Source: Melioribacteraceae bacterium
GTDB lineage: Bacteria > Bacteroidota > Ignavibacteria > Ignavibacteriales > Melioribacteraceae
Direction of reading: 5' to 3'
Assembly: GCA_021740785.1 (NCBI GenBank)
Contig: JAIOZI010000030.1
Location: forward strand, 1-58,327
Length of the DNA stretch: 58,327 bases
Shown: positions 30,140-58,167 of the stretch, one piece after another
Layout: every line of letters begins with the position of its first letter
Position numbering within the stretch: the stretch's first letter is position 1
Notes under the pieces: generated by a model
Database searches by the model: none
Seen by the model: only the letters and a program-made list of their open reading frames with translations
What the model was told of the DNA's origin: nothing
Made by a program: the position numbers and the translations under genes

Positions 30140-30237
30140 AAGAGTAAGAGTAAGAGTAAGAATAAGAGTAAGAATAAGATTATGATTAAGAGTAAGAACA
30201 TTTCCTAATCTTAATCATACTCCTAATCTTAATCTCA
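30140..30237. repeat. Low-complexity inverted repeat (AAGAGTAAG units)
   Basis: A run of AGAGTAAG/AATAAGAGTAAG units is followed by its rough reverse complement (CCTAATCTTAATCATACTCC), so the whole can fold back. A second version lies at 30631-30702. Confidence 0.75.
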
Positions 30238-30630: not shown

Positions 30631-30702
30631 AAGTAAGAGTAAGAAAAAGATTATGATTAAGATCAAGAACATTTCTTACTCTTACTCCTAATCTTAATCT
30701 CG
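30631..30702. repeat. Low-complexity inverted repeat, second copy
   Basis: The same composition as 30140-30237: AAGTAAGAGTAAGAAAAAG leading into TTCTTACTCTTACTCCTAAT. It follows directly after the REP-like GGGCT/AGCCC hairpin (30619-30630). Confidence 0.75.
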
Positions 30703-31762: not shown

Positions 31763-33157
31763 GTGTTTATGAAGCAGGCAATTATTTTTCTTCTCATCTT
31801 TTCAACATATCTTTCCGCACAATCAGTCTACAAAGAAGGCAATCTTGTAAGAATTGATTTTAGAGAAAGAGAAATTTCTTTGGCGGACACTTTTTTAACC
31901 TGGTACAGAAGAAGCGATGAATTCAGGTCAAACTCGCTGAAGTATGTTTCTTCCGTAAGCTGCGGCAGTAAAAATTATTTGATTAGTTATTACTATTATT
32001 CTGATAATTTTATCACATTTCAAAATGGGAGCGGCTATTCATTATATCGCGAAGATGGAACAGCATCTTATGACATAGGCGGTGTATCGGGGTCCACTGA
32101 TCTTTTCTGGCCGTATTTATGCGACTTTCCGACACAACTTAAAACCCGTACCGGAGTTTGGTTTCTTATGGGCATGTCCGGAAATCGTTTCGTATCAGAA
32201 GACGGCTCTGTTTACGGATTTTTTCAACATTTTACATGGGATGATGCGCCGATTTTTATTTGCGGAGAAGTTGATTCTTTGTACATGGTAAGCTATATGG
32301 ATGAAGATTATTATGAAATTGAATATCGTCTTCTTGAATTAGATAACATGCCGGAATTTGATTCAACCAACGCACCAAAAATTACAATTTATCCGGATAA
32401 TCCCGTACACCATGTCGCTCATATTGACAGCAATTTCTACTTAATTGATGTCGCCGGTGAGATGGAAAATCTATCAGAAGGTCATCTAGGTATTTATACA
32501 AAAGAGAATTTGCAGTTTAACCTTGTTAGAATAATAAAAGACAACATCGAACCGAGGTTTGATTATAGGTGGCGGTACAAAGATGATCATCTGTACATGC
32601 GTGGTGGTATTTATATCAAACAATATGATTTTAATTATGCCGATACAAACTTTGTTTTTCAACAGAATGTATTCGAAGCCCCGCAGGGAACCGCGTTAAG
32701 TTATGACTGGAAATTCGCAGCGAGAATAGATGGAGATTCGCTTTATGTAATGAAGACATTCGAAAATGACACGGTAAACATTCTGGATATTTCAAGAATA
32801 ACCGCACCGTCACGATTGATAATCGATTCCCCGTATGTGTACATTCACCAATTAAAAAAGGTGACCGACGTAAAAGAAAATGATGAAGCAATTGTAAGCA
32901 AATACTCTCTTTCCTCTTACCCGAATCCGTTTAATGCAGTCACAACAATAACCTACTCGGTTCCCGAAGCAGAGCAGGTAGAAATAAAAATATACGATGT
33001 GCTGGGAAGAGAAGTAACAACATTGAAAAATGAAATAGAAGAAGCGGGTAAACATCAAGTAACATGGGATGCAAATAACACATCAAGCGGTATTTATATA
33101 TGCACAATGAAGACGGAACGAAAGTTAATGAGCACAAAGCTGCTGTTAATGAAATAA
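31763..33157 (+). CDS. T9SS-exported protein, tandem array copy 1
   Basis: 464 residues. A Sec signal (~1-19, FLLIFSTYLSAQS) precedes a conserved start SVYKEGNLVRIDF, a divergent middle (~40-265) rich in aromatic residues and Asp, and a shared block from ~267. The end (~385-464) is a T9SS domain: SSYPNPFNAVTTITYSVPEA, KIYDVLGREV, SSGIYICTMK. I do not recognise the middle domain; a beta-propeller or beta-sandwich is plausible from strand-like spacing. The last 597 bases are nearly identical to copy 2, a sign of gene conversion. Copies are separated by about 25-30 bp and probably cotranscribed. Confidence 0.85.
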   Translation: MFMKQAIIFLLIFSTYLSAQSVYKEGNLVRIDFREREISLADTFLTWYRRSDEFRSNSLKYVSSVSCGSKNYLISYYYYSDNFITFQNGSGYSLYREDGTASYDIGGVSGSTDLFWPYLCDFPTQLKTRTGVWFLMGMSGNRFVSEDGSVYGFFQHFTWDDAPIFICGEVDSLYMVSYMDEDYYEIEYRLLELDNMPEFDSTNAPKITIYPDNPVHHVAHIDSNFYLIDVAGEMENLSEGHLGIYTKENLQFNLVRIIKDNIEPRFDYRWRYKDDHLYMRGGIYIKQYDFNYADTNFVFQQNVFEAPQGTALSYDWKFAARIDGDSLYVMKTFENDTVNILDISRITAPSRLIIDSPYVYIHQLKKVTDVKENDEAIVSKYSLSSYPNPFNAVTTITYSVPEAEQVEIKIYDVLGREVTTLKNEIEEAGKHQVTWDANNTSSGIYICTMKTERKLMSTKLLLMK

Positions 33158-33187
33158 AAAACACAACTAAATTCAAGTAAACATATT

Positions 33188-34570
33188 ATGAAAAGCATTG
33201 TACTATTAATAATAATAACCTTTTCAGTAAGCGCACAATCAGTCTACAAAGAAGGCAATCTTGTTAGAATTGATTTTGGACAAAGAGAAATTTCTCTGGC
33301 GGATACTTTTTTAACCTGGTACAGAATGAATGATGAATTCAGTCAAAAATCATTGGAATATAAATCGGCAGTTACATGCTGCGGAAATAATTACCTGGTT
33401 AGTAGTTTTTCTTATTCAAGTGATGATATAACATTTCTGAATGAATCGCATTATTCTCTATACCGGGAAGACGGAAGCATAAGTTTTAATATCAGCGGAA
33501 ATTATGCAAACGCAGACGTGATTGGACCATATACCTTTTTTTACCCCACCCAACTTAAAACCGAAAACGGAGTATGGTTTTTGATGGGTGAATTCGGAAG
33601 TTGTTTTTTATCAAAAGATGATACGGCATATGAATTTCAGCAAACATATGATTCGGAAAATCCACCGATATTTATTAGTGGAAAAGTAGACTCTTTATAT
33701 CTCGTAAGTTACTTTGATGAAGAATATAATCTTGATTGCAGGCTCCATAAGCTTAACAATATTCCTGAATTTGACTCAACCAACGCACCGCGAATAACAA
33801 TATCACCATTCAATACTCCGCTTCATATCGCCCGAATTGTTGATGATATTTATTTAATGGATACAGGCGGTGATATAAATGGTTTTGAAAGCGGACATTT
33901 GGGAATATACAAAAGAGACAGTCTGAAATTTACACTTGTTAGAATATTGCGAGATGATTTTTTTCCACAACTTGATTATAGGTGGCGGTACAAAGATGAT
34001 CATCTGTACATGCGTGATGGTATTTACATCAAACAATATGATTTTAGTTATGCCGATACAAACTTTGTTTTTCAACAGAATGTATTCGAAGCCCCGCAGG
34101 GAACCGCGTTAAGTTATGACTGGAAATTCGCAGCGAGAATAGATGGAGATTCGCTTTATGTAATGAATACATTCGAAAATGATACGGTAAACGTTCTGGA
34201 TATTTCAAGAATAACCTCACCGTCAAGGTTGATAATCGATTCCCCGTATGTGTACATTCACCAATTAAAAAAGGTGACCGACGTAAAAGAAAATGACGAA
34301 GCAATTGTAAATGAATTCTCTCTTTCCTCTTACCCGAATCCGTTTAACGCAGTAACAACAATAACCTACTCGGTTCCCGAAGCGGAGCAGGTAGAAATAA
34401 AAATATACGATGTTCTGGGAAGAGAAGTAATAACATTGAAAAATGAAATAGAAGATGCGGGTAAACATCAAGTAACATGGGATGCAAATAACACATCAAG
34501 CGGTATTTATATATGCACAATGAAGACGGAACGAAAGTTAATGAGCACAAAGCTGCTTTTAATGAAATAA
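33188..34570 (+). CDS. T9SS-exported protein, tandem array copy 2
   Basis: 460 residues, same plan as copy 1. The signal-coding sequence (MKSIVLLIIITFS) is almost identical to that of copy 3, while residues ~18-45 (SVYKEGNLVRIDF, REISLADTFLTWYR) match copy 1. The segment ~48-260 is its own, then the block from 33973 to the stop follows copy 1. Cysteine pairs (CC at ~62) are new. The 30-bp spacers on both sides are nearly the same sequence. This copy thus looks like a patchwork of its two neighbours. Confidence 0.85.
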   Translation: MKSIVLLIIITFSVSAQSVYKEGNLVRIDFGQREISLADTFLTWYRMNDEFSQKSLEYKSAVTCCGNNYLVSSFSYSSDDITFLNESHYSLYREDGSISFNISGNYANADVIGPYTFFYPTQLKTENGVWFLMGEFGSCFLSKDDTAYEFQQTYDSENPPIFISGKVDSLYLVSYFDEEYNLDCRLHKLNNIPEFDSTNAPRITISPFNTPLHIARIVDDIYLMDTGGDINGFESGHLGIYKRDSLKFTLVRILRDDFFPQLDYRWRYKDDHLYMRDGIYIKQYDFSYADTNFVFQQNVFEAPQGTALSYDWKFAARIDGDSLYVMNTFENDTVNVLDISRITSPSRLIIDSPYVYIHQLKKVTDVKENDEAIVNEFSLSSYPNPFNAVTTITYSVPEAEQVEIKIYDVLGREVITLKNEIEDAGKHQVTWDANNTSSGIYICTMKTERKLMSTKLLLMK

Positions 34571-34600
34571 AAAATACAACTAAATTCAAATAAACGTATT

Positions 34601-35965
34601 ATGAAAAGCATTGTACTATTAATAATAATAACCTTTTCAATAAACGCACAATCAATCCGCAAAGAAGGTAACCTGGTAAGAATTGATTTTCGGGAAGATC
34701 AATTTTGTTTATGCGACACTACAGCAAACTGGTTTTATTCTTCAAATCCCACAAATTTTCATTTATTAGAATACATAGGAGCAATAACAAGATTTTCCCA
34801 AAACCATTTTGTTTATAGAGAGTTGTTTCAATATGATGATGGAATATTGTATGAGGGATGGATGAATTATGGGTTGATGAATTCGGAGTCATTTGAAAAG
34901 AGTGGACTTTTCTCATTACCGTTTTTTCTCTATTTCCCAACGTATTACTCAGTGGTAAATTTTAGTATAGTCGATATAGATCACGGCGCTTGGTTTTTAA
35001 CAGGAAATAGGGGCAACAACTTTATGGACACAACTGGTTATATTACTAATGTTATTCCCGAGTTGTCCGGCTTTGTTTTTATTTGCGGACAAATTGATTC
35101 ATTATATTTAGTTGTGTTTTACAAAAATTTGGATTTTTCTCAATATGATTTTAAACTAGCTGATTTAAGCGGCTCTCCGGAAATTGATACCACAAATGCC
35201 GTTGATATATCCATAATTCCTAAAGCTTATCCCTTGCATATTTCCAAAGTTACTGAGAACATCTACCTGATGGATGATGCAGAATCGGAATCGCTTGGAT
35301 TATATTTAAAAGAAGAAAATAATCTAATTAGAATAAAAAAAATATTCGAAGACCTTTGGTTATATGGGCGTGAACCATGGAAATACTATGATGGATTTTT
35401 ATTTATAAACAGCGATGGGGTTCTTAAAAGGTTTGAGTATAATTCTGCCGATACAAGTTTTATTAACGAGACAATATTACACCCAATAAACGACAACACC
35501 GTTATAAGCTACGATTGGAAATATTCGGCTAAAATTATTGGCGATTCACTATTTGTTATTAATACAAAACTGAACCAAATTGTGAACGGTTATAATATTT
35601 CCAATATTAATTCACCATCACGACCTGTCATCGATTCCCCGTATGTGTACATTCACCAATTAAAAAAGGTGACCGATGTAAAAGAAAATGACGAAGCAAT
35701 TGTAAACGAATATTCACTTTCCTCTTACCCGAATCCGTTTAACGCAGTTACAACAATAACCTATTCGGTTCCCGAAGCGGAGCAGGTAGAAATAAAAATA
35801 TACGATGTTCTGGGAAGAGAAGTAACAACATTGAAAAATGAAATAGAAGAAGCGGGTAAACATAAAATAAACTGGGATGCAAATAAATCATCAAGTGGAA
35901 TATACATTTGCACCATGCGAACGAAACAGAATATACTTAGCATTAAGCTACTTTTGATAAAATAG
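34601..35965 (+). CDS. T9SS-exported protein, tandem array copy 3
   Basis: 454 residues. Signal peptide like copy 2; the mature start (SIRKEGNLVRIDF) is conserved. The body (~30-345) is divergent, and only the last ~110 residues (from DSPYVYIHQLKKVTDVKEND) follow the other copies, ending in the T9SS domain with SSGIYICTMRTKQN and a diverged last strand (LSIKLLLIK). The boundary of similarity lies about 220 codons later than between copies 1 and 2. Confidence 0.85.
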   Translation: MKSIVLLIIITFSINAQSIRKEGNLVRIDFREDQFCLCDTTANWFYSSNPTNFHLLEYIGAITRFSQNHFVYRELFQYDDGILYEGWMNYGLMNSESFEKSGLFSLPFFLYFPTYYSVVNFSIVDIDHGAWFLTGNRGNNFMDTTGYITNVIPELSGFVFICGQIDSLYLVVFYKNLDFSQYDFKLADLSGSPEIDTTNAVDISIIPKAYPLHISKVTENIYLMDDAESESLGLYLKEENNLIRIKKIFEDLWLYGREPWKYYDGFLFINSDGVLKRFEYNSADTSFINETILHPINDNTVISYDWKYSAKIIGDSLFVINTKLNQIVNGYNISNINSPSRPVIDSPYVYIHQLKKVTDVKENDEAIVNEYSLSSYPNPFNAVTTITYSVPEAEQVEIKIYDVLGREVTTLKNEIEEAGKHKINWDANKSSSGIYICTMRTKQNILSIKLLLIK

Positions 35966-35990
35966 GGCAATCAATTGATATGGAAGTAGC

Positions 35991-37370
35991 ATGAAAAACA
36001 CGGCTATATTATTCTTCATAATGACCCTTTGTGTATATTCACAAACATATTATGAAGAAGGGAATCTTGTAAGAATTGATTTTAGACAAAGTGAATATTC
36101 ACTTTCCGACACGATTTGCAAATGGTACTCTAGCAGCAACGAACACGGCTATGATATATTTCGATTTATTGATGCAATTGATGTAAACTCTCAAACACTG
36201 TTTATCTATGAAGAACATTTTCAAGAGGATGTTATGGGCTGGTGGAACGGCACTTATTTTGGCGTTGTGAATCCAAGTGAAAATGAACCAGAAGAAATGC
36301 TGTTTTTACCTGCTTGGTGGGATATTTTTGATGTGTATGATTATAGTTATCCGACAAAACTTAAAACGGAAAGCGGGATACTATTTATGATGGGAAATGT
36401 TGCTAACAGTTTTATATCGAACAATGCTGAAGTCTTTAAAATTCAGTATAGCGACGATAGTCTTGGCACCTTGATTTATTTAGCAGGAAAAATTGACGAT
36501 AAGTATTTAGCTGTATTTTCATCAGATGGAGGGTGGGATGATTACGGTTTTTATTTAATTGATTCACTAGATTTTACCGATATTAATCCTAACAATCCTC
36601 AACAAGTATTTTTCCCGGAAGGAGTTTTCCCGCACCACTTGGAACATATTTCCGGAAATATTTTTATTTCGGATTATGCTGCATACGGAGGAGGACTTGG
36701 AATATTTATTAGAGATGGATTGATCTTTTACTTATATGAGAATATTTTTTTAACTAATATTTTTCCCAGCATGGAATATAATTGGCGTTATAGAAACAAC
36801 TACTTATATATTAATTACCATCCAACTGTTAGACGATATGAATTTAATTCCTTGGATTCAAGCTTTACTAATGAAACAATTTTATTTGATTTTAATTACG
36901 ACATGGTTTTTGATGATGATTTTAAATATGCAGCTTTTATAAGTAACGATTCTTTATTCGTTTTTAATACAATAGTTAATGATACAATAAGTTACTATGA
37001 TATTTCAAGAATAACCTCACCGTCAAGGTTGATAATCGATTCCCCGTATGTGTACATTCATCAATTAAAAAAGGTGACCGTTGTAAAAGAAAATGATGAA
37101 GCAATTGTAAACGAATATTCACTTTCCTCTTACCCGAATCCGTTTAACGCAGTAACAACAATAACATACTCCATTCCAGAAGCAGGTCAGGTAGAAATAA
37201 AAATATACGATGTTCTGGGAAGAGAAGTAACAACATTGAAAAATGAAATAGAAGATGCGGGTAAACATAAAATAAACTGGGATGCAAATAACACATCAAG
37301 CGGTATTTATATATGCACAATGAAGACGGAACGAAAGTTAATGAGCACAAAGCTGCTGTTAATGAAATAA
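35991..37370 (+). CDS. T9SS-exported protein, tandem array copy 4
   Basis: 459 residues. The signal peptide (NTAILFFIMTLCVYSQ) differs from the other copies, but YYEEGNLVRIDFRQSEYSLS is recognisable. The body is divergent; from ~336 (DISRITSPSRLIIDSPYVYI) it rejoins copies 1-2, and the final strand (TERKLMSTKLLLMK) is that of copies 1 and 2, not of neighbouring copy 3. It closes the array; a 164-bp spacer follows. Confidence 0.85.
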   Translation: MKNTAILFFIMTLCVYSQTYYEEGNLVRIDFRQSEYSLSDTICKWYSSSNEHGYDIFRFIDAIDVNSQTLFIYEEHFQEDVMGWWNGTYFGVVNPSENEPEEMLFLPAWWDIFDVYDYSYPTKLKTESGILFMMGNVANSFISNNAEVFKIQYSDDSLGTLIYLAGKIDDKYLAVFSSDGGWDDYGFYLIDSLDFTDINPNNPQQVFFPEGVFPHHLEHISGNIFISDYAAYGGGLGIFIRDGLIFYLYENIFLTNIFPSMEYNWRYRNNYLYINYHPTVRRYEFNSLDSSFTNETILFDFNYDMVFDDDFKYAAFISNDSLFVFNTIVNDTISYYDISRITSPSRLIIDSPYVYIHQLKKVTVVKENDEAIVNEYSLSSYPNPFNAVTTITYSIPEAGQVEIKIYDVLGREVTTLKNEIEDAGKHKINWDANNTSSGIYICTMKTERKLMSTKLLLMK

Positions 37371-39411: not shown

Positions 39412-41733
39412 ATGTTAAATACTATTACTTTATTCCTATCCTTGCTGCTATTCTTACAACTTTCGGCGCAGTCAAAAAAGGATTTCGATCTTTCTTTGCC
39501 GGATAATGAAATCGGTAAAACAACCGTTTACCGTGACGGCAAAATGTTTAAGGGCACTAAACTGGAGTATTCCCTAATGGAAGGAGGCTACTTCACCATG
39601 GGCACTTCAAACGGGATTTCCGAATCAAACCTGGATAATCAATTACAGCTTACGTTCGGACATCCATACGCACTAACTTCTTTTATTGAAATAAGCATTA
39701 ACGGAGGAGCTTATTTAAATTTCGACGACTTATTTCCAGCCGCAGCAATTTCAAAATCCAACGACACATTAGCAGTAGCGGGCGCATCCGAAAATTTATC
39801 GGCGCTGATTTATCTCAATCAGAAAAATGATTCAACAATATCAATCACCGGTTCCATTTTTAATACTGGCGCAGAAACAATAGAAGCATCAATGAAACTG
39901 AACATTGATCCCGCAATCGGTAAATGGGGCGACGGATTTCTATTCTACAATGACGAATTTTTCGCTCAGCAAAATGTTATTACCGGGATTTCATCATCGG
40001 ATCAAATTGAAATTTATGAAAGAAGCGGTCAGCCTTTCGGCGCCGGTATCTCTTTATCATTCCCGGGAAATCTTCCTGAAAGTTTTGCGGTAATGAATTG
40101 GAATTATTCGGATGAGACTATCACGGAATTGTTTGATCTTTATGTTGAAATTGAAAGTCCGACTGTAAACATTGAGCCTGAAAGTAGCTACGAGTTTGCG
40201 GTTGAGGTAAAACTGCTCGAACCGGAATTTACAAATCCCGTTTTTGTAAGATGGGATTTCCCGCAGTTCTTGACGGTCGACAACGGGCTGCTTTTTCCAC
40301 GCAATATTAATTCGATGATTCGTGCATATAACAGCATCGAATCGAACATACAAATCGAATCACTCTCGTTTTCTGCAAATGAGTTGATAGATACAACAAC
40401 CTCATTTAAAGATACAATCATTAATGTCAATTCAAGTACGTACATGGGGATGAATATTTTTGTCCCGGAAAATTATGAAGATAAAACATTGTCGGTTACA
40501 CTCGAAGCCTTAAACGCAGACGGAATAGCACTTGATGCAGTAACACGGAGAATATTTATTCCGGCTGTTCCACTTTCGGATTCCGGATTGGTTGTTAATG
40601 TAGATTCTATTATGACTTCGGGTTTCCCGGATATTGATATTCGCTTTAATGTAAAGAATGAAGAAACGGGCGGGTATGTATTCGGATTAAGAAAAGAAAA
40701 TATTTTCCTATATGAAGAGGGAACCCGGCTTTATGATTACACAATAATGAAAGATACTTCCGGTGGTTCAAATGAAGTTGATATTGTTTTTGTACTTGAT
40801 GTTACCGGCAGTATGTCGGATGAAATTGTGGCGGTTAAAAACAACATTATTGAATTTGCCGACAGCTTAATTTTACGAGGAGTAGATTATAGATTAGGAA
40901 TGGTAACATTTCTCGATATCATTGAAAATGTATATGATTTCACTGATGATGCCGTGTTATTCAAATCATATGTAGCCGAACAATTTGCTCACGGCGGCGG
41001 CGACTATCCCGAAAATTCTCTCGAAGCATTGAACACCGCCACGCAGTTTGATTTTCGTCCAAGTTCAAACAGAATGGTGATTTGGATAACCGATGCGAGC
41101 TATCATGAAGGTGATGGAGTTACTTCCCTTACTGTTGAGGATGTACTCCCCAATCTTTTGACTGCAGGTATGACTGTAAACTGCATCGGCAATTCATACG
41201 AACAAACTGATTTTTATGATCCGATTGTAATTCCTACAGGCGGAACGTTTTATGATATTTACGGAAACTTTAGAGATATTCTTCTTGATATAACAAGAGG
41301 TCAATCGACCTTCAATTACCTGCTTTCATATACATCTACTCAGGCGGCAGGAAGCCAAATTAACGGCACGATAGAAGTACATTATGCAGGTCTCGGAGCA
41401 ATTGAAAATTTTGTAATTCCGGGAACTCTTTCCCCTCAGAAGTATGCGCCGGTATTACAATGTTATCCAAATCCGTTCAATCCGTATGTAAATATTCAAG
41501 TAGAGAAATCGATCCAAAGCATGGGTGCGGTTAGAATATTTAACGTGCTCGGGGAAGTGGTTTACAGCGCAAATATTCCAGCCGGTGAACCGCTCTTTAG
41601 ATTAACATGGAACGGTATAACGGATTCCGGATTCAAGGTAAGCAGCGGAGTTTACATTGTACGCGCGGTGCTTGAAAACACGAAAGGAAAAGTAAATGAA
41701 GTTCTTTCACAAAAATTACTTTATCTAAAGTAG
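39412..41733 (+). CDS. T9SS-exported VWA-domain protein
   Basis: 773 residues. Signal peptide (~1-20, LLLFLQLSAQS), beta-rich region (~25-440), then a von Willebrand A domain (~455-650) with the metal site DVTGSMSDE near residue 463 intact and VIWITDASYHEGDG. A T9SS domain closes it (CYPNPFNPYVNIQV; IFNVLGEVVYS; SSGVYIVRAV). VWA domains bind protein ligands through a metal ion; a surface adhesion or protein-assembly role is inferred. It is followed after 12 nt by a second VWA-type protein, so the two probably act together. Confidence 0.87.
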   Translation: MLNTITLFLSLLLFLQLSAQSKKDFDLSLPDNEIGKTTVYRDGKMFKGTKLEYSLMEGGYFTMGTSNGISESNLDNQLQLTFGHPYALTSFIEISINGGAYLNFDDLFPAAAISKSNDTLAVAGASENLSALIYLNQKNDSTISITGSIFNTGAETIEASMKLNIDPAIGKWGDGFLFYNDEFFAQQNVITGISSSDQIEIYERSGQPFGAGISLSFPGNLPESFAVMNWNYSDETITELFDLYVEIESPTVNIEPESSYEFAVEVKLLEPEFTNPVFVRWDFPQFLTVDNGLLFPRNINSMIRAYNSIESNIQIESLSFSANELIDTTTSFKDTIINVNSSTYMGMNIFVPENYEDKTLSVTLEALNADGIALDAVTRRIFIPAVPLSDSGLVVNVDSIMTSGFPDIDIRFNVKNEETGGYVFGLRKENIFLYEEGTRLYDYTIMKDTSGGSNEVDIVFVLDVTGSMSDEIVAVKNNIIEFADSLILRGVDYRLGMVTFLDIIENVYDFTDDAVLFKSYVAEQFAHGGGDYPENSLEALNTATQFDFRPSSNRMVIWITDASYHEGDGVTSLTVEDVLPNLLTAGMTVNCIGNSYEQTDFYDPIVIPTGGTFYDIYGNFRDILLDITRGQSTFNYLLSYTSTQAAGSQINGTIEVHYAGLGAIENFVIPGTLSPQKYAPVLQCYPNPFNPYVNIQVEKSIQSMGAVRIFNVLGEVVYSANIPAGEPLFRLTWNGITDSGFKVSSGVYIVRAVLENTKGKVNEVLSQKLLYLK

Positions 41734-41745
41734 GAGGGGGCTAAA

Positions 41746-43776
41746 ATGAAAAAATTATTATTTATAACAACAATGATTTTACTAGCGAATACATTAACAG
41801 CAGGCGGTTTGCTTTTATCAAATAATGAAGATTATCCCGGCAGACTGCTTAGAAATAAAACAATGGCGATTGATGTAAAAATCAATAATTATTTTGCTGA
41901 AACCATTGTTTATGAAGAATTCATAAATGATTGGGATGAAACGGTTGATGCAGTTTACTCGTTTCCGCTGCCGGATGGAGCTCGTACGGTTCTATTGCTT
42001 TACTGGAGCGGCGATACGACATATAAAGCCGTGCTGCAGGTAAAACAGCAGGATATAAACCCCGGTACCGGTGAAGGCGGGATCGCTGCCGAAGTAAATG
42101 AATACATCGGGCGAAACGGGATCAGATTACAACTAAGAGATATTGAGCCGGGAGAAATTCAGAAGGTAGAACTTCGTTATATAAGCAACCTCGATTATCA
42201 CAAAGGAACGGCTTACTATTCTCTGCCTGTGAACACTTCTCAATTCTTGGATTACCCGATAGATATTTTTGCATTCAATATTAACGTAGAAAGTTCGAAA
42301 ACGATTACAGGGTTCGATGTTCCCAGTCACCCGGATTACAGTGTTGATGTAAGCGGTGAACATCAAATTCAGTTATCGTATGAAAAATCAAAAAAGTATT
42401 TAACATCGGATCTTGCATTTGAATATACTGCTGCGAGCGAAGATGTGTCGGTAAATTTTGAAACTGAATTTATTGATACTCTCGGCGGACATTTTAATCT
42501 ATTCGTTACATCACCGAATGAAGTTGACGAATCGGAAATCATTCACAGGAACGTTGTATTCCTTCTGGAAAATTCATCAAAAATGTTCGGCATTAAATTA
42601 CAGCAGAGCAAAGACGCTATTATTAATGCTCTTGATTTACTTAACGAGATGGATAGTTTTAACATCATCACATTCAATCAATTGATAAATGAATGGCAGC
42701 CGAATCTTGTGCCCGCAACGGAAACCAATAAAACCTCGGCGATAACATTCCTTGAGGATGTTATTGCTCAGTACGGCACAAATTTGCAGAACGCTTTAAG
42801 TACATCTCTTTCGCAGTTTACCAGCGACACCTTAAATAATTCCATCATATTATTCAGCGGCGGCAGGTCTGATGTTGATCCCGTAAACATTGCTTCTAAC
42901 AACAACTTTGATACGGGAATATTTGCAATTGGGCTGGGCGATGATGTGGACAGAGAAAAGCTCGAATTTATTTCGCAGTTGAATTACGGGTTCGTTACTT
43001 ACTTTGATGTGACCGATAATGTTCAGCAGGGAATAGGAAGAGTGATTGAAAAAATTTCCACCCCGATTATTAAAGACGTGGCAATTGATTTCAGTAAAGA
43101 TGATATCCATCAAAAAATACCGGCAACGTATCCTTCTATATTTGCGGGATCTTACTCTTATATAGTCGGCAGATACGATGAGGGAGGCAACTCGGATATA
43201 ACTATCACCGGGAATACGACCGGCGAGGAATTTATCTCAAATTACCAGGTAACATTTAATTCCGGGTACCAAAGTAACTTTTCCGATAAGCTTTGGGCAA
43301 AGGAAAAGATCGATCAGCTTGAAAGATATATAGAAACGTACGGAGAGGACGATGCATTAAAGGACAGCTTAATTGAATTGAGTCTCACCTATGAAATTAA
43401 ATGTAAATACACCGCGTACATCGCCGATTACGAAGAAGAATATGATTTAACCGGTGTCAAAGAAACTGATGAACTACTGCCGGTTTCATATTCGTTGATT
43501 GCGCAGAATTATCCTAATCCTTTTAATGCAACTACAACCTTCAGATTTTTTGTTTCAGAGAAAGATGCAGGCAGAGCGGTTCTTCTAAAAATTTATAACA
43601 TACTTGGCGAACTCGTTGCAGTGATTGATCTTTCAAATTATTCAAGCGGATGGCATCAAATTGTATTCAATGGAAAAGACGGATTCGGAAACGTTCTGCC
43701 GAGCGGAGTTTATATCGTCAGTATGCAAGTCGGAAATAAAATTGTAAACTCGGTAAAAATTAATTTACTGAAATAA
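41746..43776 (+). CDS. T9SS-exported VIT/VWA-domain protein
   Basis: 676 residues. After the signal, a VIT domain (~25-150: VDAVYSFPLPDGARTVLLLY, GIRLQLRDIEPGEIQKVELR) precedes a VWA-like domain (~265-430). At the place of the metal motif DxSxS it reads ENSSK (residues 275-279), so metal binding is probably lost. The T9SS end (NYPNPFNATTTFRF, IYNILGELV, SGVYIVSM) follows. VIT-VWA proteins in eukaryotes form protein-binding assemblies; here it may pair with the intact VWA protein upstream. Its last ~30 codons are almost identical to those of 46085-46942. Confidence 0.87.
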   Translation: MKKLLFITTMILLANTLTAGGLLLSNNEDYPGRLLRNKTMAIDVKINNYFAETIVYEEFINDWDETVDAVYSFPLPDGARTVLLLYWSGDTTYKAVLQVKQQDINPGTGEGGIAAEVNEYIGRNGIRLQLRDIEPGEIQKVELRYISNLDYHKGTAYYSLPVNTSQFLDYPIDIFAFNINVESSKTITGFDVPSHPDYSVDVSGEHQIQLSYEKSKKYLTSDLAFEYTAASEDVSVNFETEFIDTLGGHFNLFVTSPNEVDESEIIHRNVVFLLENSSKMFGIKLQQSKDAIINALDLLNEMDSFNIITFNQLINEWQPNLVPATETNKTSAITFLEDVIAQYGTNLQNALSTSLSQFTSDTLNNSIILFSGGRSDVDPVNIASNNNFDTGIFAIGLGDDVDREKLEFISQLNYGFVTYFDVTDNVQQGIGRVIEKISTPIIKDVAIDFSKDDIHQKIPATYPSIFAGSYSYIVGRYDEGGNSDITITGNTTGEEFISNYQVTFNSGYQSNFSDKLWAKEKIDQLERYIETYGEDDALKDSLIELSLTYEIKCKYTAYIADYEEEYDLTGVKETDELLPVSYSLIAQNYPNPFNATTTFRFFVSEKDAGRAVLLKIYNILGELVAVIDLSNYSSGWHQIVFNGKDGFGNVLPSGVYIVSMQVGNKIVNSVKINLLK

Positions 43777-43839: not shown

Positions 43840-45204
43840 ATGAAGATTATTAAAATTCTTTTGTTAATCACATCATATAGCATTGCTCAAAATTATGGAA
43901 ACTGGATTGAACTTGATTCTATGCATGTTGAACGAATAGGACATGCGTTGGTTGAACTACCTAATGGTAACATTCTTGTTAGCGGTAATGGGGTCGATAG
44001 CACACAATCCAATGCAGAAATATATGATTTTACAATAGGTAAATGGCGAATGACAACTCCAATGAATGTTCCAAGAGTATCGCATGCTCTTATTCTAGTG
44101 AATACTGGAAAGGTTCTTGCAATAGGTGGGTATAAAGAACAAAGTTGTGAATTATTTGATCCAGTTAGTGAAACTTGGAGTATGACTGACTCCATACCTA
44201 CATTCAGGTGGTTTAATCCGAGTGTAACTGAATTGGCAAATGGTAACATTCTGGTTACAGGGGGTGGCTATATTGATACTACAACTTGGGATGACTATAT
44301 ATTAAGTAATGCAGAAATATATAACATTGCTACAGAAAGTTGGGGAATTGCTACTCCAATGAATATTAAAAGAAAAAATCACTCTGCCACATTATTGTTG
44401 GATGGCAGAGTTCTTATAACTGGTGGATTCAACAAAGACTTAGAGTTGGATGACTGTGAAATATATAATCCTGATGATAATACTTGGACTCAAGTTGCCC
44501 CCTTAAGCGAAGCGAGAAATATGCATAGTGCAATATTGCTAAAAAATGGGAACGTATTTGTAAGCGGCGGAAATTTAAAAAGCTGTGAAGTATATGATGT
44601 TAATGAAAATCAATGGTTTTCGGTTGATGATATGTTAGCATATAGAACGGGTCACAAAATATATTATATCTCAAAAATAGATAAACTATTTATTTTGGGC
44701 GGAGAGGCCAACTGGGAAATCTATGATCCAATTAATTTAACACCGGTTTACAAAGGATCATTTCCAACAAACATATTTTTGAGGGACAATAACCTACAGA
44801 TGTCGAATGAGAATATTTTTGTTGCCGGTGGAGAAGAGTATGAGATACCGGATGACGGTCTTCCTTATACATGGCCTTCTAAACGAAGCTGGACATTTGA
44901 TGTCATTACAAGTATTAATGAGGATAACGATAATCAAACCAAAGGGTTTAAACTAATGCAAAATTATCCAAATCCGTTTAACGGGCAAACGCAAATATAT
45001 TATTCAATACCATCAAAAGGAGAAATATCTATTAAAGTATATAACTCACTTGGTCAAGAAATAGAAGAATTGTTTAATGGTTATAGAACAAAGGGAAGTT
45101 ACATTATAAATTGGAAGCCGGACAATATAACAAGCGGAGTTTATCTCGTTGTTTTTCAAACTCCATCTCAAATAATAACAAACAAAACAATTTATTTAAA
45201 GTAG
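43840..45204 (+). CDS. T9SS-exported Kelch-repeat protein
   Basis: 454 residues with signal peptide. Five to six Kelch repeats (~20-350) show the pattern 'LLxxGxVLxxGG......CEIYxPxxxTWxxxxPM' (for example GKVLAIGGYKEQSCELFDPV and GRVLITGGFN), forming a beta-propeller. The T9SS domain (NYPNPFNGQTQIYYSIPSKG) ends it. The function is probably binding at the cell surface. Its sorting domain is nearly identical in DNA to that of the next gene, although the two bodies are unrelated. Confidence 0.88.
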   Translation: MKIIKILLLITSYSIAQNYGNWIELDSMHVERIGHALVELPNGNILVSGNGVDSTQSNAEIYDFTIGKWRMTTPMNVPRVSHALILVNTGKVLAIGGYKEQSCELFDPVSETWSMTDSIPTFRWFNPSVTELANGNILVTGGGYIDTTTWDDYILSNAEIYNIATESWGIATPMNIKRKNHSATLLLDGRVLITGGFNKDLELDDCEIYNPDDNTWTQVAPLSEARNMHSAILLKNGNVFVSGGNLKSCEVYDVNENQWFSVDDMLAYRTGHKIYYISKIDKLFILGGEANWEIYDPINLTPVYKGSFPTNIFLRDNNLQMSNENIFVAGGEEYEIPDDGLPYTWPSKRSWTFDVITSINEDNDNQTKGFKLMQNYPNPFNGQTQIYYSIPSKGEISIKVYNSLGQEIEELFNGYRTKGSYIINWKPDNITSGVYLVVFQTPSQIITNKTIYLK

Positions 45205-45212
45205 GTGCGGTT

Positions 45213-46076
45213 ATGAACACTATAAAAAACATTTTTTACTTCACGGTATTTTTATCATTTACTTGTTTTGCACAAGAAGAAGATACTCTGAGTTATTTCC
45301 CTCTTCAAGTAGGTAATCTTTGGCAGTATTATCAACCTCACAATGGTGATTATTTTCAAGTAGAAGTATTATCTGAGGATACCAGCGCGGAAGAATCTTC
45401 AATAATTTATCTAGTTAAAATACGTTATGCGGAAATACCTCATAAAGTTTTTATAAATGATTTGAACACAATTTATTGGAAAACTTCGTCTGATTCAAGC
45501 TGGTCTATTAAATATAAATTTAATGCAGCAATTGGTGAAGCATGGATAAGTAATTCGTTTCACCAATATTATACCGTCTATAAAGGTCAAGATGAAGATA
45601 TTTTATTTGGTCAAAATGTAGAAACGAAAGAATTTTGGCTTACTGATCATCCCCAAACAACATTGCCTTTAGCAGCAGAGTGGTTAGCAAAGGGATTTGG
45701 TCTTTATAAAAGCGAATTTGAAGTAGGCGCTACTTTGTTAATTGGTTGCATAATAGACGGTATTCGATACGGCACAATAGTAGAAGTTGAAGAAAATAAT
45801 AATGAAGAAATAATAAATACATACCAATTAAAAAACTATCCAAATCCGTTTAACGGGCAAACGCAAATTTATTATTCAATACCATCAAAAGGAGAAATAA
45901 CTATTAAAGTATATAACTCACTTGGTCAAGAAATAGAAGAGTTATATAGAGGTTTTAAAACAAAAGGAAGTTATACTATTAATTGGAAGCCGGACAATAT
46001 AACAAGCGGAGTTTATTTTGTTGTTCTGCAAACTTCTTCCCAAGTTAAAACTAACAAAACAGCTTATTTAAAGTAG
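45213..46076 (+). CDS. T9SS-exported protein of the 'YFPLQVGN.W' family (a)
   Basis: 287 residues from the ATG at 45213; an upstream in-frame ATG at 45111 lies inside the Kelch gene and would bury the signal (FYFTVFLSFTCFAQ). The body opens with YFPLQVGNLWQYY and closes with GCIIDGIRYGTIVEVEE, a frame shared with 46085, 47018 and 52208. The T9SS domain matches that of the Kelch gene. Function unknown; the family is common in Ignavibacteria, from memory. Confidence 0.8.
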   Translation: MNTIKNIFYFTVFLSFTCFAQEEDTLSYFPLQVGNLWQYYQPHNGDYFQVEVLSEDTSAEESSIIYLVKIRYAEIPHKVFINDLNTIYWKTSSDSSWSIKYKFNAAIGEAWISNSFHQYYTVYKGQDEDILFGQNVETKEFWLTDHPQTTLPLAAEWLAKGFGLYKSEFEVGATLLIGCIIDGIRYGTIVEVEENNNEEIINTYQLKNYPNPFNGQTQIYYSIPSKGEITIKVYNSLGQEIEELYRGFKTKGSYTINWKPDNITSGVYFVVLQTSSQVKTNKTAYLK

Positions 46077-46084
46077 GTGCGGTT

Positions 46085-46942
46085 ATGAAAACTATAAAAA
46101 AAATTTTTTACTTCACAATATTTTTATCATTTACTTGTTTTGCACAAGAGGAGGATCCCCTAGAATACTACCCACATAACGTAGGAGATGCTTGGCAATA
46201 CGAACGAGTTCCCGTAGGAACTATACGAACAATACAAATAACAAGAGTAGATACAAGTGCAGATGGGAATGAACATTACATTTTTCATGGTAATTCTGAT
46301 ATATCCTATGAAAAAGTGGTTGTGGATTCAGCATTGGTATATTATTCAGGCAATCCAAATCCGTGGTATAAACTAGATGTACCAATAGGTTCAATTTGGA
46401 TCAGAGAAGAAGGAGTTGAGTGGGTTAAGTACGGCAGAGATGATATTGACTATAAATGGGGTCAAGAATTGCAAACGAAAACATTTTATAATTATTACTG
46501 GGATCCTCCGGATAGTTCCTCCGGTTATGCTGGTTCCGCCGAAGTATTAGCAAGAGGCATAGGAATACTAAAGTATGAATGGGAAGGTGGTAAAGAAGAA
46601 TTAACAGGTTGCATAATAAACGGAGTTCAATACGGCACAATAGTAGGAGTTGAAGAAAATAGTAATGAAGAATTAGTAGATAATTACCAATTAGAAAGTT
46701 ATCCAAATCCTTTTAATGAGCAAACTCAGATTTATTATTATATACCAAAAAGTTCCTTGGTAACAATAAAAATATACAACATACTTGGTCAAGTAATCGA
46801 TCAAATATCCAAAGGAATAAAAGAAGCAGGTGAATACATAATTAACTGGAAGCCAAAAAGTTTATCAAGCGGAGTTTATATCGTCAGTATGCAGGTCGGA
46901 AATAAAATTGTAAACTCGGTAAAAATTAATTTGCTGAAATGA
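46085..46942 (+). CDS. T9SS-exported protein of the 'YYPHNVGDAW' family (b)
   Basis: 285 residues. The first ~25 residues and the bases upstream of the ATG are almost identical to those of the previous gene (8-nt spacer), so it arose by tandem duplication. The body is different (YYPHNVGDAWQYE to GCIINGVQYGTIVGVEE). The C-terminal end (SSGVYIVSMQVGNKIVNSV) copies that of the VIT/VWA gene at 41746 instead of its sibling. It is thus a hybrid with a swapped sorting domain. Confidence 0.82.
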   Translation: MKTIKKIFYFTIFLSFTCFAQEEDPLEYYPHNVGDAWQYERVPVGTIRTIQITRVDTSADGNEHYIFHGNSDISYEKVVVDSALVYYSGNPNPWYKLDVPIGSIWIREEGVEWVKYGRDDIDYKWGQELQTKTFYNYYWDPPDSSSGYAGSAEVLARGIGILKYEWEGGKEELTGCIINGVQYGTIVGVEENSNEELVDNYQLESYPNPFNEQTQIYYYIPKSSLVTIKIYNILGQVIDQISKGIKEAGEYIINWKPKSLSSGVYIVSMQVGNKIVNSVKINLLK

Positions 46943-52207: not shown

Positions 52208-54142
52208 ATGATTTTAAAAAAAATCTTTTCTGCAGCAATTTACTTTTTCTTAGTTGCAACACTAACGGCACAAAGCGATTTAAAGATTTTGAGCATGGAA
52301 GGACTTGAGGATCCAAATAACGAAACCCTTCTTTATTACGGGATTGATTCTTATTACAGTGAATATAGCTGGAGTGTTTACGGATCCACCATTAACCGGT
52401 TACATGTTGCTTCAGGGCAGGATACGACATTTCTTTGGCGGATCTCCATTATAAATCCGTATGAAACTTATACAGAATTTTATTCGGATTTTGATTTATG
52501 GAATAATGATCCAAATAGATGGATCGCATCGGGAATTGTTTCGGGACTTGATCCAAGCTTGTCGGTAAAAAGATTTGATAGTGAATATCCAGATGAAATT
52601 TGGATTGGCTTTGATTTATCAAAAGTGTTTATATCCAACCTGTCGGATTCAACAGTATACTGTTCAGCCAAGAATTATCTTGTTACATCGAATGACAGCG
52701 GAAAAACATGGGACGGAAGCGCATATTTAAACTTTTCATTAATAGGGTTAACCGGCAGCGATTTAATGTTTGGTTACAATGAAAACGGGAATCTTGTTAT
52801 TTCTACAGATGCGGGAAACACACAACAAATAGTAGATGATAACACATTCTGGAATTTCGACACAGAATTATTTTATGATTCAGATCAATCCCACATTTAT
52901 GCATTGGCAAACTCAGAGGGAAATTCATATTTGGCTGTATCTGATAATTCCGGCGATCCCTATACATGGCAGGTTGTTCGGCAGTCATCCCGGCGAATGA
53001 GATTCGCATTTGATGATTCAACAAGCGGCGAGTTATATTATTCCAAAGGTAATTCTATTTATAAATCCGAAGATTACGGTATATCATTTAATGAATTAAT
53101 TGCTCTCGATCACCGGGTAACCGGGCTGTATAAGAAACCCGGCTCCGATAAACTTTACGCTTCTACTTATTTTAATATTGTTGAAATAACTGCGGACTCT
53201 GTTGAGCTTCTCAAATCTATCATTCCTACAGAAAGCATTAAGTACTATCCGCTTCAAATAGGGTATAAATTTGTTTATACAAGAAAGAGCTGCGTTATTC
53301 CCGAATACGATTGTAACGAACGGTATCTTACTCGCGAAGTAATTGGCGATACATTGATGCCGAATAATAAAAAGTATTTCGCAATTATTGAAGACGACGA
53401 GAACACGGATTTTGAACCCGTATATTATGAGCGTATCGATACACTTACCGGCAAATTATTCCGTTATGATGAACATGCCGATATTTCTTGTTACGAGTAC
53501 GTACTTGATGATTTTGCTGCAATTCCGGGGGATAGTTTTTACACTGAAAGATTCAGTTTCGGCTTAAATCCTTTTATTGCCGAGGTTACCGCAGAAGATG
53601 ATATTTTATTTTGGGAAGAAGAAACTTCTGTAAAATCATATAGCATTATGACGGGAACCTTTACATCGACTTATCAATATGTAAGAGAATTTGGGCTTTC
53701 TGAGGTTGAAACGTGGAGCGACTTTTTATACATGAAAGATTCTCTACGCGGCGCTGTAATAAACGGAATAGTATACGGCGATACGGCTTTGGTTGTATCT
53801 GTAAATGATGATAATGAATATCTAGCAAAAGAATTTAAGCTGTACCAAAACTATCCAAACCCGTTCAACCCGACAACAAAAATTAAATATACAATCCCAA
53901 CTGTAGAGCGAAACGCTGTTTCGCTCAAAAAGAATAAGCGATTCGGCAAATCGCATTACAACGTAAGCTTAAGAGTTTACAGCATTCTCGGAGAAGAAAT
54001 AACAACACTAGTAAACGAAGCCAAACAACCGGGTACCTACGAAGTTGAATTTGATGCAGCCAAATTACCGAGCGGTGTTTATTTTTATAGATTAAACGCC
54101 GGCGATTATTCAGAAACAAAGAAGATGATTTTAATTAGATAA
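52208..54142 (+). CDS. T9SS-exported protein with BNR-like repeats and 'YYPLQIG' domain
   Basis: 644 residues. After the signal (FFLVATLTAQS) come sialidase/BNR-like segments (~100-330: SNDSGKTWDGSAY, STDAGNTQQ, SDNSGDPYTWQVV, SEDYGISFNEL), then the family domain seen at 45213-47890 (YYPLQIGYKFVYT, VIGDTLMPNNKKY, GAVINGIVYGDT). The T9SS domain (NYPNPFNPTTKIKYTIPTVE) carries an in-frame insertion encoded by two hairpins at 53906-53926 and 53938-53954, giving RNAVSLKKNKRFGKSHYN before NVSLRVYS. The same insertion occurs at 57931-57979. Confidence 0.85.
   Translation: MILKKIFSAAIYFFLVATLTAQSDLKILSMEGLEDPNNETLLYYGIDSYYSEYSWSVYGSTINRLHVASGQDTTFLWRISIINPYETYTEFYSDFDLWNNDPNRWIASGIVSGLDPSLSVKRFDSEYPDEIWIGFDLSKVFISNLSDSTVYCSAKNYLVTSNDSGKTWDGSAYLNFSLIGLTGSDLMFGYNENGNLVISTDAGNTQQIVDDNTFWNFDTELFYDSDQSHIYALANSEGNSYLAVSDNSGDPYTWQVVRQSSRRMRFAFDDSTSGELYYSKGNSIYKSEDYGISFNELIALDHRVTGLYKKPGSDKLYASTYFNIVEITADSVELLKSIIPTESIKYYPLQIGYKFVYTRKSCVIPEYDCNERYLTREVIGDTLMPNNKKYFAIIEDDENTDFEPVYYERIDTLTGKLFRYDEHADISCYEYVLDDFAAIPGDSFYTERFSFGLNPFIAEVTAEDDILFWEEETSVKSYSIMTGTFTSTYQYVREFGLSEVETWSDFLYMKDSLRGAVINGIVYGDTALVVSVNDDNEYLAKEFKLYQNYPNPFNPTTKIKYTIPTVERNAVSLKKNKRFGKSHYNVSLRVYSILGEEITTLVNEAKQPGTYEVEFDAAKLPSGVYFYRLNAGDYSETKKMILIR
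53906..53954. repeat. Palindromic insertion in a T9SS domain
   Basis: GAGCGAAAC-GCT-GTTTCGCTC (53906-53926, perfect 9-bp arms) and GCGATT-CGGCA-AATCGC (53938-53954) lie in the loop between the first and second strands of the sorting domain. They are in frame. The copy at 57931-57979 has the second hairpin in a perfect form. Confidence 0.75.
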
Positions 54143-57531: not shown

Positions 57532-58167
57532 TTGTTATCGGTGTACTGTTTTTACTTGACTTTTTCTTTAATAGAAGACCCAAATCTTGACCCAGACATG
57601 ACAAACATGATAAAAGGAGAAATAAAAAATGAGGTTCAAAAGTCAATTGTTGACACAACTTACTTAAATCCAGATAGCACAATTTTTAGAGTTAAAAAAA
57701 AGTTTGTACGTCTTGAGTCAGAAATTGATTCTGTTGGGAGAACAGATGTGGGTTTCTGGGGTGCCACTAAATTTTCTTTGGATAAAGACTCAGTTTATCA
57801 AAATATAACTGTGGACTTAACGACAGGCGTTGAAGATGAAAATCCTCTTGAAAAAAAGTTTAGCGTTTCTCAAAATTATCCCAACCCCTTCAACCCAACA
57901 ACAAAAATAAAATATACAATCCCAACTGTAGAGCGAAACGCTGTTTCGCTCAAAAAGAACAAGCGATTCGGCGAATCGCGTAACAACGTAAGCTTAAGAG
58001 TTTACAGCATTCTCGGAGAAGAAATAACAACACTAGTAAACGAAGCCAAACAGCCCGGCACCTACGAAGTTGAATTTGATGCATCTAAATTACCGAGCGG
58101 AGTTTATTTTTATAGATTGAATGCTGGAGATTATTCAGAAACGAAGAAAATGATTTTGATAAGGTAA
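57532..58167 (+). pseudogene. T9SS sorting domain, rear part of a broken gene
   Basis: 211 codons open, starting only with a TTG at 57532 just after a stop; there is no signal peptide, so the piece cannot be exported by itself. The final ~95 residues are a T9SS domain (NYPNPFNPTTKIKYTIPTVE; LRVYSILGEEITTLV; LPSGVYFYRLNAG) almost identical in DNA to that of 52208-54142, including the palindromic insertion (57931-57979). The preceding ~115 residues (EDPNLDPDMTNMIKGE to KDSVYQNITVDL) are not recognised. Confidence 0.55.
57931..57979. repeat. Palindromic insertion in a T9SS domain, second copy
   Basis: GAGCGAAAC-GCT-GTTTCGCTC (57931-57951) and GCGATTCG-G-CGAATCGC (57963-57979), the latter a perfect 17-bp palindrome. 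It is homologous to 53906-53954, where the second hairpin is degenerate. Confidence 0.75.

Follow-up and report, generated by a model that had tools for sequence, protein, structure and literature searches.

Young-looking ends and old-looking middles in a four-gene array of type IX secretion cargo from a Melioribacteraceae bacterium

Why are four adjacent genes nearly identical at their ends and strongly divergent in their middles? This question is raised by a tandem array, here called c1 to c4, in the genome of a Melioribacteraceae bacterium (G000; 4.85 Mb, 115 contigs, 99.9% complete). The window, meaning the whole stretch of DNA analysed, comprises positions 1–58327 of contig C79, and the four genes are most likely a tandem family encoding cargo of the type IX secretion system (T9SS). 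A preliminary description read the array as the product of gene conversion and as a surface-antigen diversification cassette; the first part of that interpretation is upheld by the analysis and the second is not. It is highly probable that the array is a T9SS cargo family of old duplicates whose 3' tails, spacers and parts of whose 5' ends have been overwritten between copies by homologous recombination. Such overwriting would make the ends look young and the middles old.

Patchwork organisation of the array

All four genes lie on the forward strand and are separated by gaps of 25–30 bp, with c1 at 31769–33157, c2 at 33188–34570, c3 at 34601–35965 and c4 at 35991–37370. Each is a complete open reading frame (ORF) whose product consists of a hydrophobic, signal-like start, a body ~340 residues long and a T9SS sorting tail of type A, and the four bodies are homologous to one another. 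Here c1 is called from the ATG at 31769; the start at 31763 proposed earlier corresponds to a GTG in the same frame, two codons before it. All four tails match PF18962 (46.5–50.9 bits; cut-off 27) and TIGR04183 (44.5–46.8 bits; cut-off 23). By eye, the N-terminal hydrophobic stretches stop ahead of AQ or SQ; a Gln after the signal cleavage site is described as typical for Bacteroidetes, and not for related phyla (PMC5837995).

The four copies share different near-identical blocks with different partners, as the preliminary description had observed. The most extensive of these is the c1/c2 3' block (32559–33157 in c1 and 33972–34570 in c2), which is identical at 578 of 599 bp, including 576 of the last 597 bp, with a silent-site divergence (dS) of 0.045–0.157 against a saturated body. 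When followed from 32553, the match continues through the spacer into the start of c2 (656/687 bp identical), such that the unit of c1 tail, spacer and c2 signal recurs as c2 tail, spacer and c3 signal. Specifically, the c1–c2 spacer with the c2 signal start (33158–33238) matches the c2–c3 spacer with the c3 signal start (34571–34651) at 76 of 81 bp, and the signal dS is 0 over 17 codons. At the 5' side, the mature N-terminal blocks of c1 (31816–31921) and c2 (33232–33337) are identical at 97 of 106 bp. Between these blocks, codons 51–277 show only 43–61% nucleotide identity, in line with the strong divergence reported for the middles.

The tails of c3 and c4 add further partners to this patchwork. 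The c3 tail region at 35594–35857 is common to the other copies (tail core dS 0.25–0.31), whereas its last 35 codons (35858–35962) are unshared and are annotated as the part that conversion missed. As described before, c4 ends like c1 and c2 and unlike c3, with identities over the last 60 bp of 1.00 for c1/c4, 0.98 for c2/c4 and 0.68 for c3/c4. The c4 tail (36999–37370) opens with a 62-bp exact match to c2, has one of 68 bp to c3 in its middle and closes with one of 93 bp to c1, and is plausibly a mosaic itself, first c2-like, then c3-like, then c1/c2-like. The statistical support for this mosaic is mixed: run tests over codons 358–442 return 10 of 5,000 permutations for c2/c4 and 7 of 5,000 for c3/c4, the same tests limited to c1, c2 and c4 give no signal, and the 13 informative sites show no significant order (3,881/10,000). 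Because different blocks are common to different partners, several events are needed to account for the array.

Silent-site divergence along the genes

Silent sites display the same alternation of young and old segments. In the signal peptide, dS is 0 for c2/c3 and at least 0.6, or saturated, for all remaining pairs; in the mature N-terminus it is 0.28 for c1/c2 and at least 0.78 for the remaining pairs. Across body codons 51–277 every pair is saturated or above 2, c1/c2 being saturated, and over codons 278–357 dS is 0.045 for c1/c2 and above 2 or saturated for the others. The tail core (codons 358–440) is uniformly close, at 0.16–0.31 across all six pairs, and the last 35 codons separate c1, c2 and c4 (0.025–0.08 among themselves) from c3 (1.26–1.54 against the others). 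The recombination analysis proposed in the preliminary description, run on the four genes as a silent-codon segment test that takes only codons at which both copies encode the same residue, finds shared segments beyond chance in 6/6 pairs, the best observed identical segment being reached by 0 of 10,000 permutations.

Within the c3 tail, age varies along the sequence. Among same-residue codons, those of its last 35 are identical at 11/20, 12/20 and 14/23 positions against c1, c2 and c4, compared with 67/77, 70/77 and 66/76 in the tail core, and the c3 end clearly differs in age from the rest of its tail blocks (p 0.002–0.013). For c1/c4, the evidence that the end of the tail postdates the core (28/28 vs 66/76, p 0.059) is only suggestive. 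In the middles of c1–c4, neither the split analysis nor the silent sites detect recent exchange; the informative splits in alignment columns 121–834 number 52 vs 19 vs 19 and describe one dominant tree. The c1/c2 bodies differ at proportions of 0.29 (nonsynonymous, pN) and 0.78 (silent, pS), values that give no apparent sign of selection for diversity, within the limit that saturation sets on the test, and the array bodies most likely diverged under purifying selection. Recent exchange makes the ends alike, not the middles new.

Tails and bodies of T9SS genes across the genome

A comparison of 73 body-homologous T9SS gene pairs sampled in G000, 53 of them far and 20 within 12 kb, addresses whether tails are simply slow. 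This control leaves out pairs above E 1e-10, short body alignments and pairs with few comparable codons. Silent identity in the 53 far pairs reaches a median of 0.465 for the tails and 0.456 for the bodies. The tail exceeds the body by more than 0.15 silent identity in 9/20 near pairs, 6 of which belong to the array, and in 2/53 far pairs, while the body exceeds the tail by the same amount in 0/20 near and 7/53 far pairs, the latter being what tail replacement would give. In G000, testing nucleotide identity for an effect of proximity gives 151 (3 kb) and 49 (6 kb) of 5,000 permutations, and the silent-site version of the test is stronger, with 2 (3 kb) and 0 (6 kb) of 5,000.

Near-identical tails are also found on bodies without detectable similarity. 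The G000 tail sample retains 165 of 168 ORFs, drawn from 80 stretches and the window and picked by tail matches, and the samples in two single-contig family genomes comprise 64 tails in G060 (127 matches) and 45 in G049 (85 matches); ORFs shorter than 100 codons were left out, as were tails lying over 12 residues away from the C-terminus, pairs with fewer than 180 aligned tail bases and, from the distance tables, bodies below 60 aa (G000 and G060; unfiltered in G049). Against a background tail identity of ~0.54, 4/138 pairs within 6 kb and 10/15,171 others across the three genomes combine tails at least 85% identical with bodies that show no blastp similarity, the 85% line having been set after the data were seen. 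The near pairs are distributed as 3/68 in G000, 1/42 in G060 and 0/28 in G049. Bodies are here called unrelated when blastp returns no hit (E 1e-3 or 1e-2), a definition under which remote homology is possible, and in 2/4 of the near pairs neither member has a Pfam body domain.

Several such cases lie in the window itself, all on the forward strand. A Kelch-body T9SS gene (43840–45204) shares its last 244 bp and 124 bp downstream with the next gene (319/369 bp identical), and no body similarity is found between the two; this neighbour (45177–46076, start position approximate) carries the second copy of the tail-spacer-signal module. Its signal start is in turn matched by that of the following gene (46085–46942), which has a 73-bp 3'-end stretch in common with the gene starting at 41746 (97%). 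Further downstream, the tail of a T9SS gene at 52208–54142 (~316 bp, 90%) is also present on a short T9SS gene at 57532–58167, the bodies again lacking detected similarity. Elsewhere in G000, gene C39_87337 combines the FG-GAP body end of C10_29865 with a tail that is also found in C65_970, an M14-peptidase gene.

Corresponding patterns in single-contig genomes

The two single-contig genomes of the family contain patterns of the same kind. In G060, the neighbouring genes 1477488 and 1480813 are 97–100% identical per 60-bp window over their last 660 bp and 45–68% identical upstream, which is the anatomy also seen in c1/c2. G049 contains a pair of 3.1-kb tandem units with 94.6% identity, but their large genes, 1784451 and 1787305, differ in their tails, and each tail has its counterpart, at 95–97% identity, in 1751447 or 1750575, two genes lying side by side. 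These two genes sit 33–37 kb from the tandem units on the other strand, and their bodies are not similar to those of the units. The identity changes partner at the NYPNPFNP codons, where a run of identical bases is common to all four genes. The tandem units are the clearest tail swap encountered. The adjoining segment, composed of tail, spacer and next body, matches between both places at 88–89%, and tail-bounded segments therein seem to move together.

The same region of G049 (contig C1, 1750000–1754000 and 1782000–1790000) thus holds T9SS tail segments that are near-identical, inverted relative to each other and separated by 33–37 kb, and recombination between them could flip the DNA that they enclose.

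Genomic setting of the array

In agreement with the family assignment, a window enzyme, a gamma-glutamyltransferase, has its best named match (48% identity) in a Melioribacteraceae metagenome genome; the scan's two other matches, to Paracoccaceae and Rhodobacteraceae, have far lower scores. The array bodies reach the cut-off of no Pfam or NCBIfam family. A c2 structure model built from four sequences is all-beta at low confidence (mean predicted local distance difference test score, pLDDT, 54.7), and many WD-repeat chains stand among the 50 PDB matches listed for it (template modelling (TM) score by query at most 0.31, root-mean-square deviation ~9 to 29), which offers only a suggestion that the bodies may be propeller-like. 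Within G000, a search with the array body matches just the four array copies, and a search of the contigs of named genomes for homologues yields none. Array-body matches are present in 10 of 79 family genomes including G000; the other nine carry one to three distant matches, never two per contig, and none of the 78 contains a close body (best match E 3e-32).

The four genes probably form one transcription unit. Between 31600 and 37600, 20 sigma-70-type promoters are predicted against 27.9 expected from shuffles, an uninformative count, and one terminator-like site against 3.1 expected; matches to RNA families and tRNAs number zero in the window. Regarding the secretion machinery, SprA is present in G000 in a 2315-aa frame, and 14 of 21 PorV-family matches exceed the curated cut-off. 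Upstream of the array, a ~1-kb gap holds imperfect TAAGAGTAAGA-type repeats at 30145–30229 and 30634–30700, and this gap is where gene direction and GC skew flip. Downstream, neighbouring T9SS genes at 39412–41733 and 41746–43776 carry von Willebrand A (VWA) domains; the latter is a VIT-VWA gene that resembles a marine sortase-target family below that family's cut-off.

A diversity-generating retroelement was considered and rejected, as the sole RVT_1 match in G000 lies on contig C17, outside the window, and is accompanied by no template or variable repeats. The ORF concerned (C17:73044–74363) follows a 1459-aa T9SS gene at a distance of ~0.5 kb and presumably encodes a group II intron protein, judging by eye. 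The stretch around it (L155) has one 30-bp repeat pair (80%), both copies of which lie inside the upstream T9SS gene, and stretch L045 has no repeats of at least 40 bp.

Weighing the explanations

The silent-site mosaic of the array, its recurrence elsewhere and the tail differences between near-identical tandem units are direct observations. Gene conversion of the ends, or an equivalent non-allelic homologous recombination, is well supported by the silent-site profiles, the sharp boundaries and the like patterns in the two single-contig genomes. In this account, c1–c4 would derive from old duplications, after which the bodies would have diverged separately while gene conversion or unequal exchange, on several occasions, recopied tails, spacers and part of the 5' ends from one copy to another. 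Sorting-tail DNA, being common to many genes, may supply the homology for RecA-type recombination. Between neighbours, tracts would begin in the tail and may extend up into a related body, as for c1/c2, or downstream via the spacer into the next signal sequence, as for c1-c2-c3; with unrelated bodies, the tract would end at the 5' edge of the tail. Exchange would be commonest between neighbours and would also place tails on unrelated bodies, with the breakpoint at the NYPNPFNP codons, and selection may keep tails functional and recognisable without rewarding diversity. Type A tail recognition is said to depend on structural motifs and not on sequence, at below 40% identity (PMC12618676); tails could therefore be swapped with export kept.

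Several points weigh against this account. Conversion may have run in either direction between the copies, and the c1/c2 match flanking a different middle fits replacement of the middle equally. The age contrast within the c1/c4 tail rests on small counts (p 0.059). The near/far contrast between bodies and tails, which covers G000 and G060, is weak in G000 once the array is removed (3/14 vs 2/53, p 0.058) and not significant in G060 alone (4/11 vs 2/15, p 0.35); pooled without the array it stands at 7/25 vs 4/68 (p 0.007), and because the pairs in these tests share genes and are not independent, the p-values serve as guides. In G049, the two high-identity pairs with unlike bodies are both far and none is near. 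Moreover, G000 is a fragmented assembly of 115 contigs, and the genes on C10, C39 and C55 lie near contig ends, so that the C10/C39 switch carries less weight.

A further possibility, which we regard as very unlikely, is that a metagenome-type assembly produced a chimera here or collapsed repeats. Among the 150 tails listed, 11 lie 1.2 kb or less from a left contig end (on C11, C32, C47, C55, C65, C79, C80, C84, C85, C103 and C108) against 4.3 expected (p 0.005), and T9SS tails probably do break assemblies; yet the longest exact match between array copies is 120 bp, the copies carry private differences, and the single-contig genomes show like patterns. Least credible of all is plain tandem duplication with a slow tail under strong constraint and no recombination. 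Tails are indeed conserved sorting domains, but the silent-site profile contradicts this reading by showing the same contrast, tails are not silently slower in the 53 far pairs, and the last 35 codons of c3 are far more silently divergent than the rest of its tail. Replacement of the bodies is a more serious rival, although still improbable: recent duplicates would have kept their ends while the middles were swapped for divergent alleles of other strains or for lost paralogues, which would make the array a true diversification cassette. It accounts for the c1/c2 matches on both sides of a divergent middle (97/106 and 578/599 bp) with one event, where conversion of the ends needs two. However, no donor is known, close bodies being absent from the other 78 family genomes and from the named-genome contigs, the two flanking blocks differ in dS, the body splits follow one tree, and elsewhere it is the tails alone that unrelated bodies have in common.

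The surface-antigen cassette advanced in the preliminary description would imply that conserved ends drive reshuffling of variable centres during growth, producing, through antigenic or phase variation, subpopulations with different surface proteins. The array does combine conserved ends with variable centres, and T9SS proteins of Porphyromonas gingivalis are reported to undergo domain rearrangement and allelic exchange (PMC5266723). The array nevertheless consists of four complete genes, with silent partial copies absent, mostly silent change in the bodies, and recent exchange at the ends and none detected in the centres, where silent sites are saturated or at dS above 2. Since c1–c4 all begin with a start codon and a signal-like stretch, end in a tail and are spaced 25–30 bp apart, there is no sign of an expression site with silent donors. 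Known Melioribacteraceae are free-living, so no host immunity is known to act. Nothing found shows an antigen-variation device, and there is very little chance that the array is one.

Relation to known systems and implications

Gene conversion and concerted evolution are well known in multigene families, and the present case resembles them in that parts of paralogues are locally homogenised, in sharp tracts, and are more alike than the bodies. Unlike in classic concerted evolution, the homogenised part here is an export signal carried by many genes whose bodies are otherwise unrelated. Antigenic variation of the pilE/pilS and vlsE type combines conserved flanks and variable centres with silent cassettes and a single expression locus; the array has such flanks and centres but neither silent cassettes nor a single expression locus, and its recent exchange is on the flanks. 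A parallel within the same secretion system is provided by the gingipain and HagA proteins of P. gingivalis, for which domain rearrangement among T9SS surface proteins is described (PMC5266723): in both cases T9SS surface-protein genes trade domains by recombination. There, adhesin and catalytic-domain variants are distributed among strains of a host-associated species (PMC5266723), whereas here the exchange concerns sorting tails inside a single genome, that of a presumably environmental bacterium. Among the titles and abstracts listed on T9SS recombination and Ignavibacteria secretion, there is no account of sorting-tail exchange between unrelated genes. Gene conversion and T9SS rearrangement in P. 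gingivalis are known, and tail exchange between unrelated genes is, by these listings, apparently unreported.

A bolder extension, possible but doubtful, is that tail DNA acts as a genome-wide set of recombination anchors between which NYPNPFNP-to-NYPNPFNP modules, each made up of a tail, a spacer and the body of the following gene, are copied and swapped, rewiring the exported proteins. In Flavobacterium johnsoniae, all type A tails are reported to be recognised by PorV (PMC12618676), compared with 14 PorV-family matches over the cut-off in G000; given these 14, a body that acquires a new tail may use another shuttle and reach another destination. Independently of this idea, 14 PorV-family matches are many for a component described as the type A shuttle in F. 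johnsoniae (PMC12618676).

What is converted here is an export signal, carried by 165 genes in the sample and common to unrelated proteins as well. In large T9SS secretomes, its exchange would be a possible route by which a protein becomes secreted or changes its tail, and tail copying would explain the near-identical tails on some neighbouring cargo genes. Caution is warranted for tail-based phylogenies and for metagenome assemblies of such genes, both of which can mislead. The finding also makes testable whether the tails of these bacteria are freely interchangeable or shuttle-selective.

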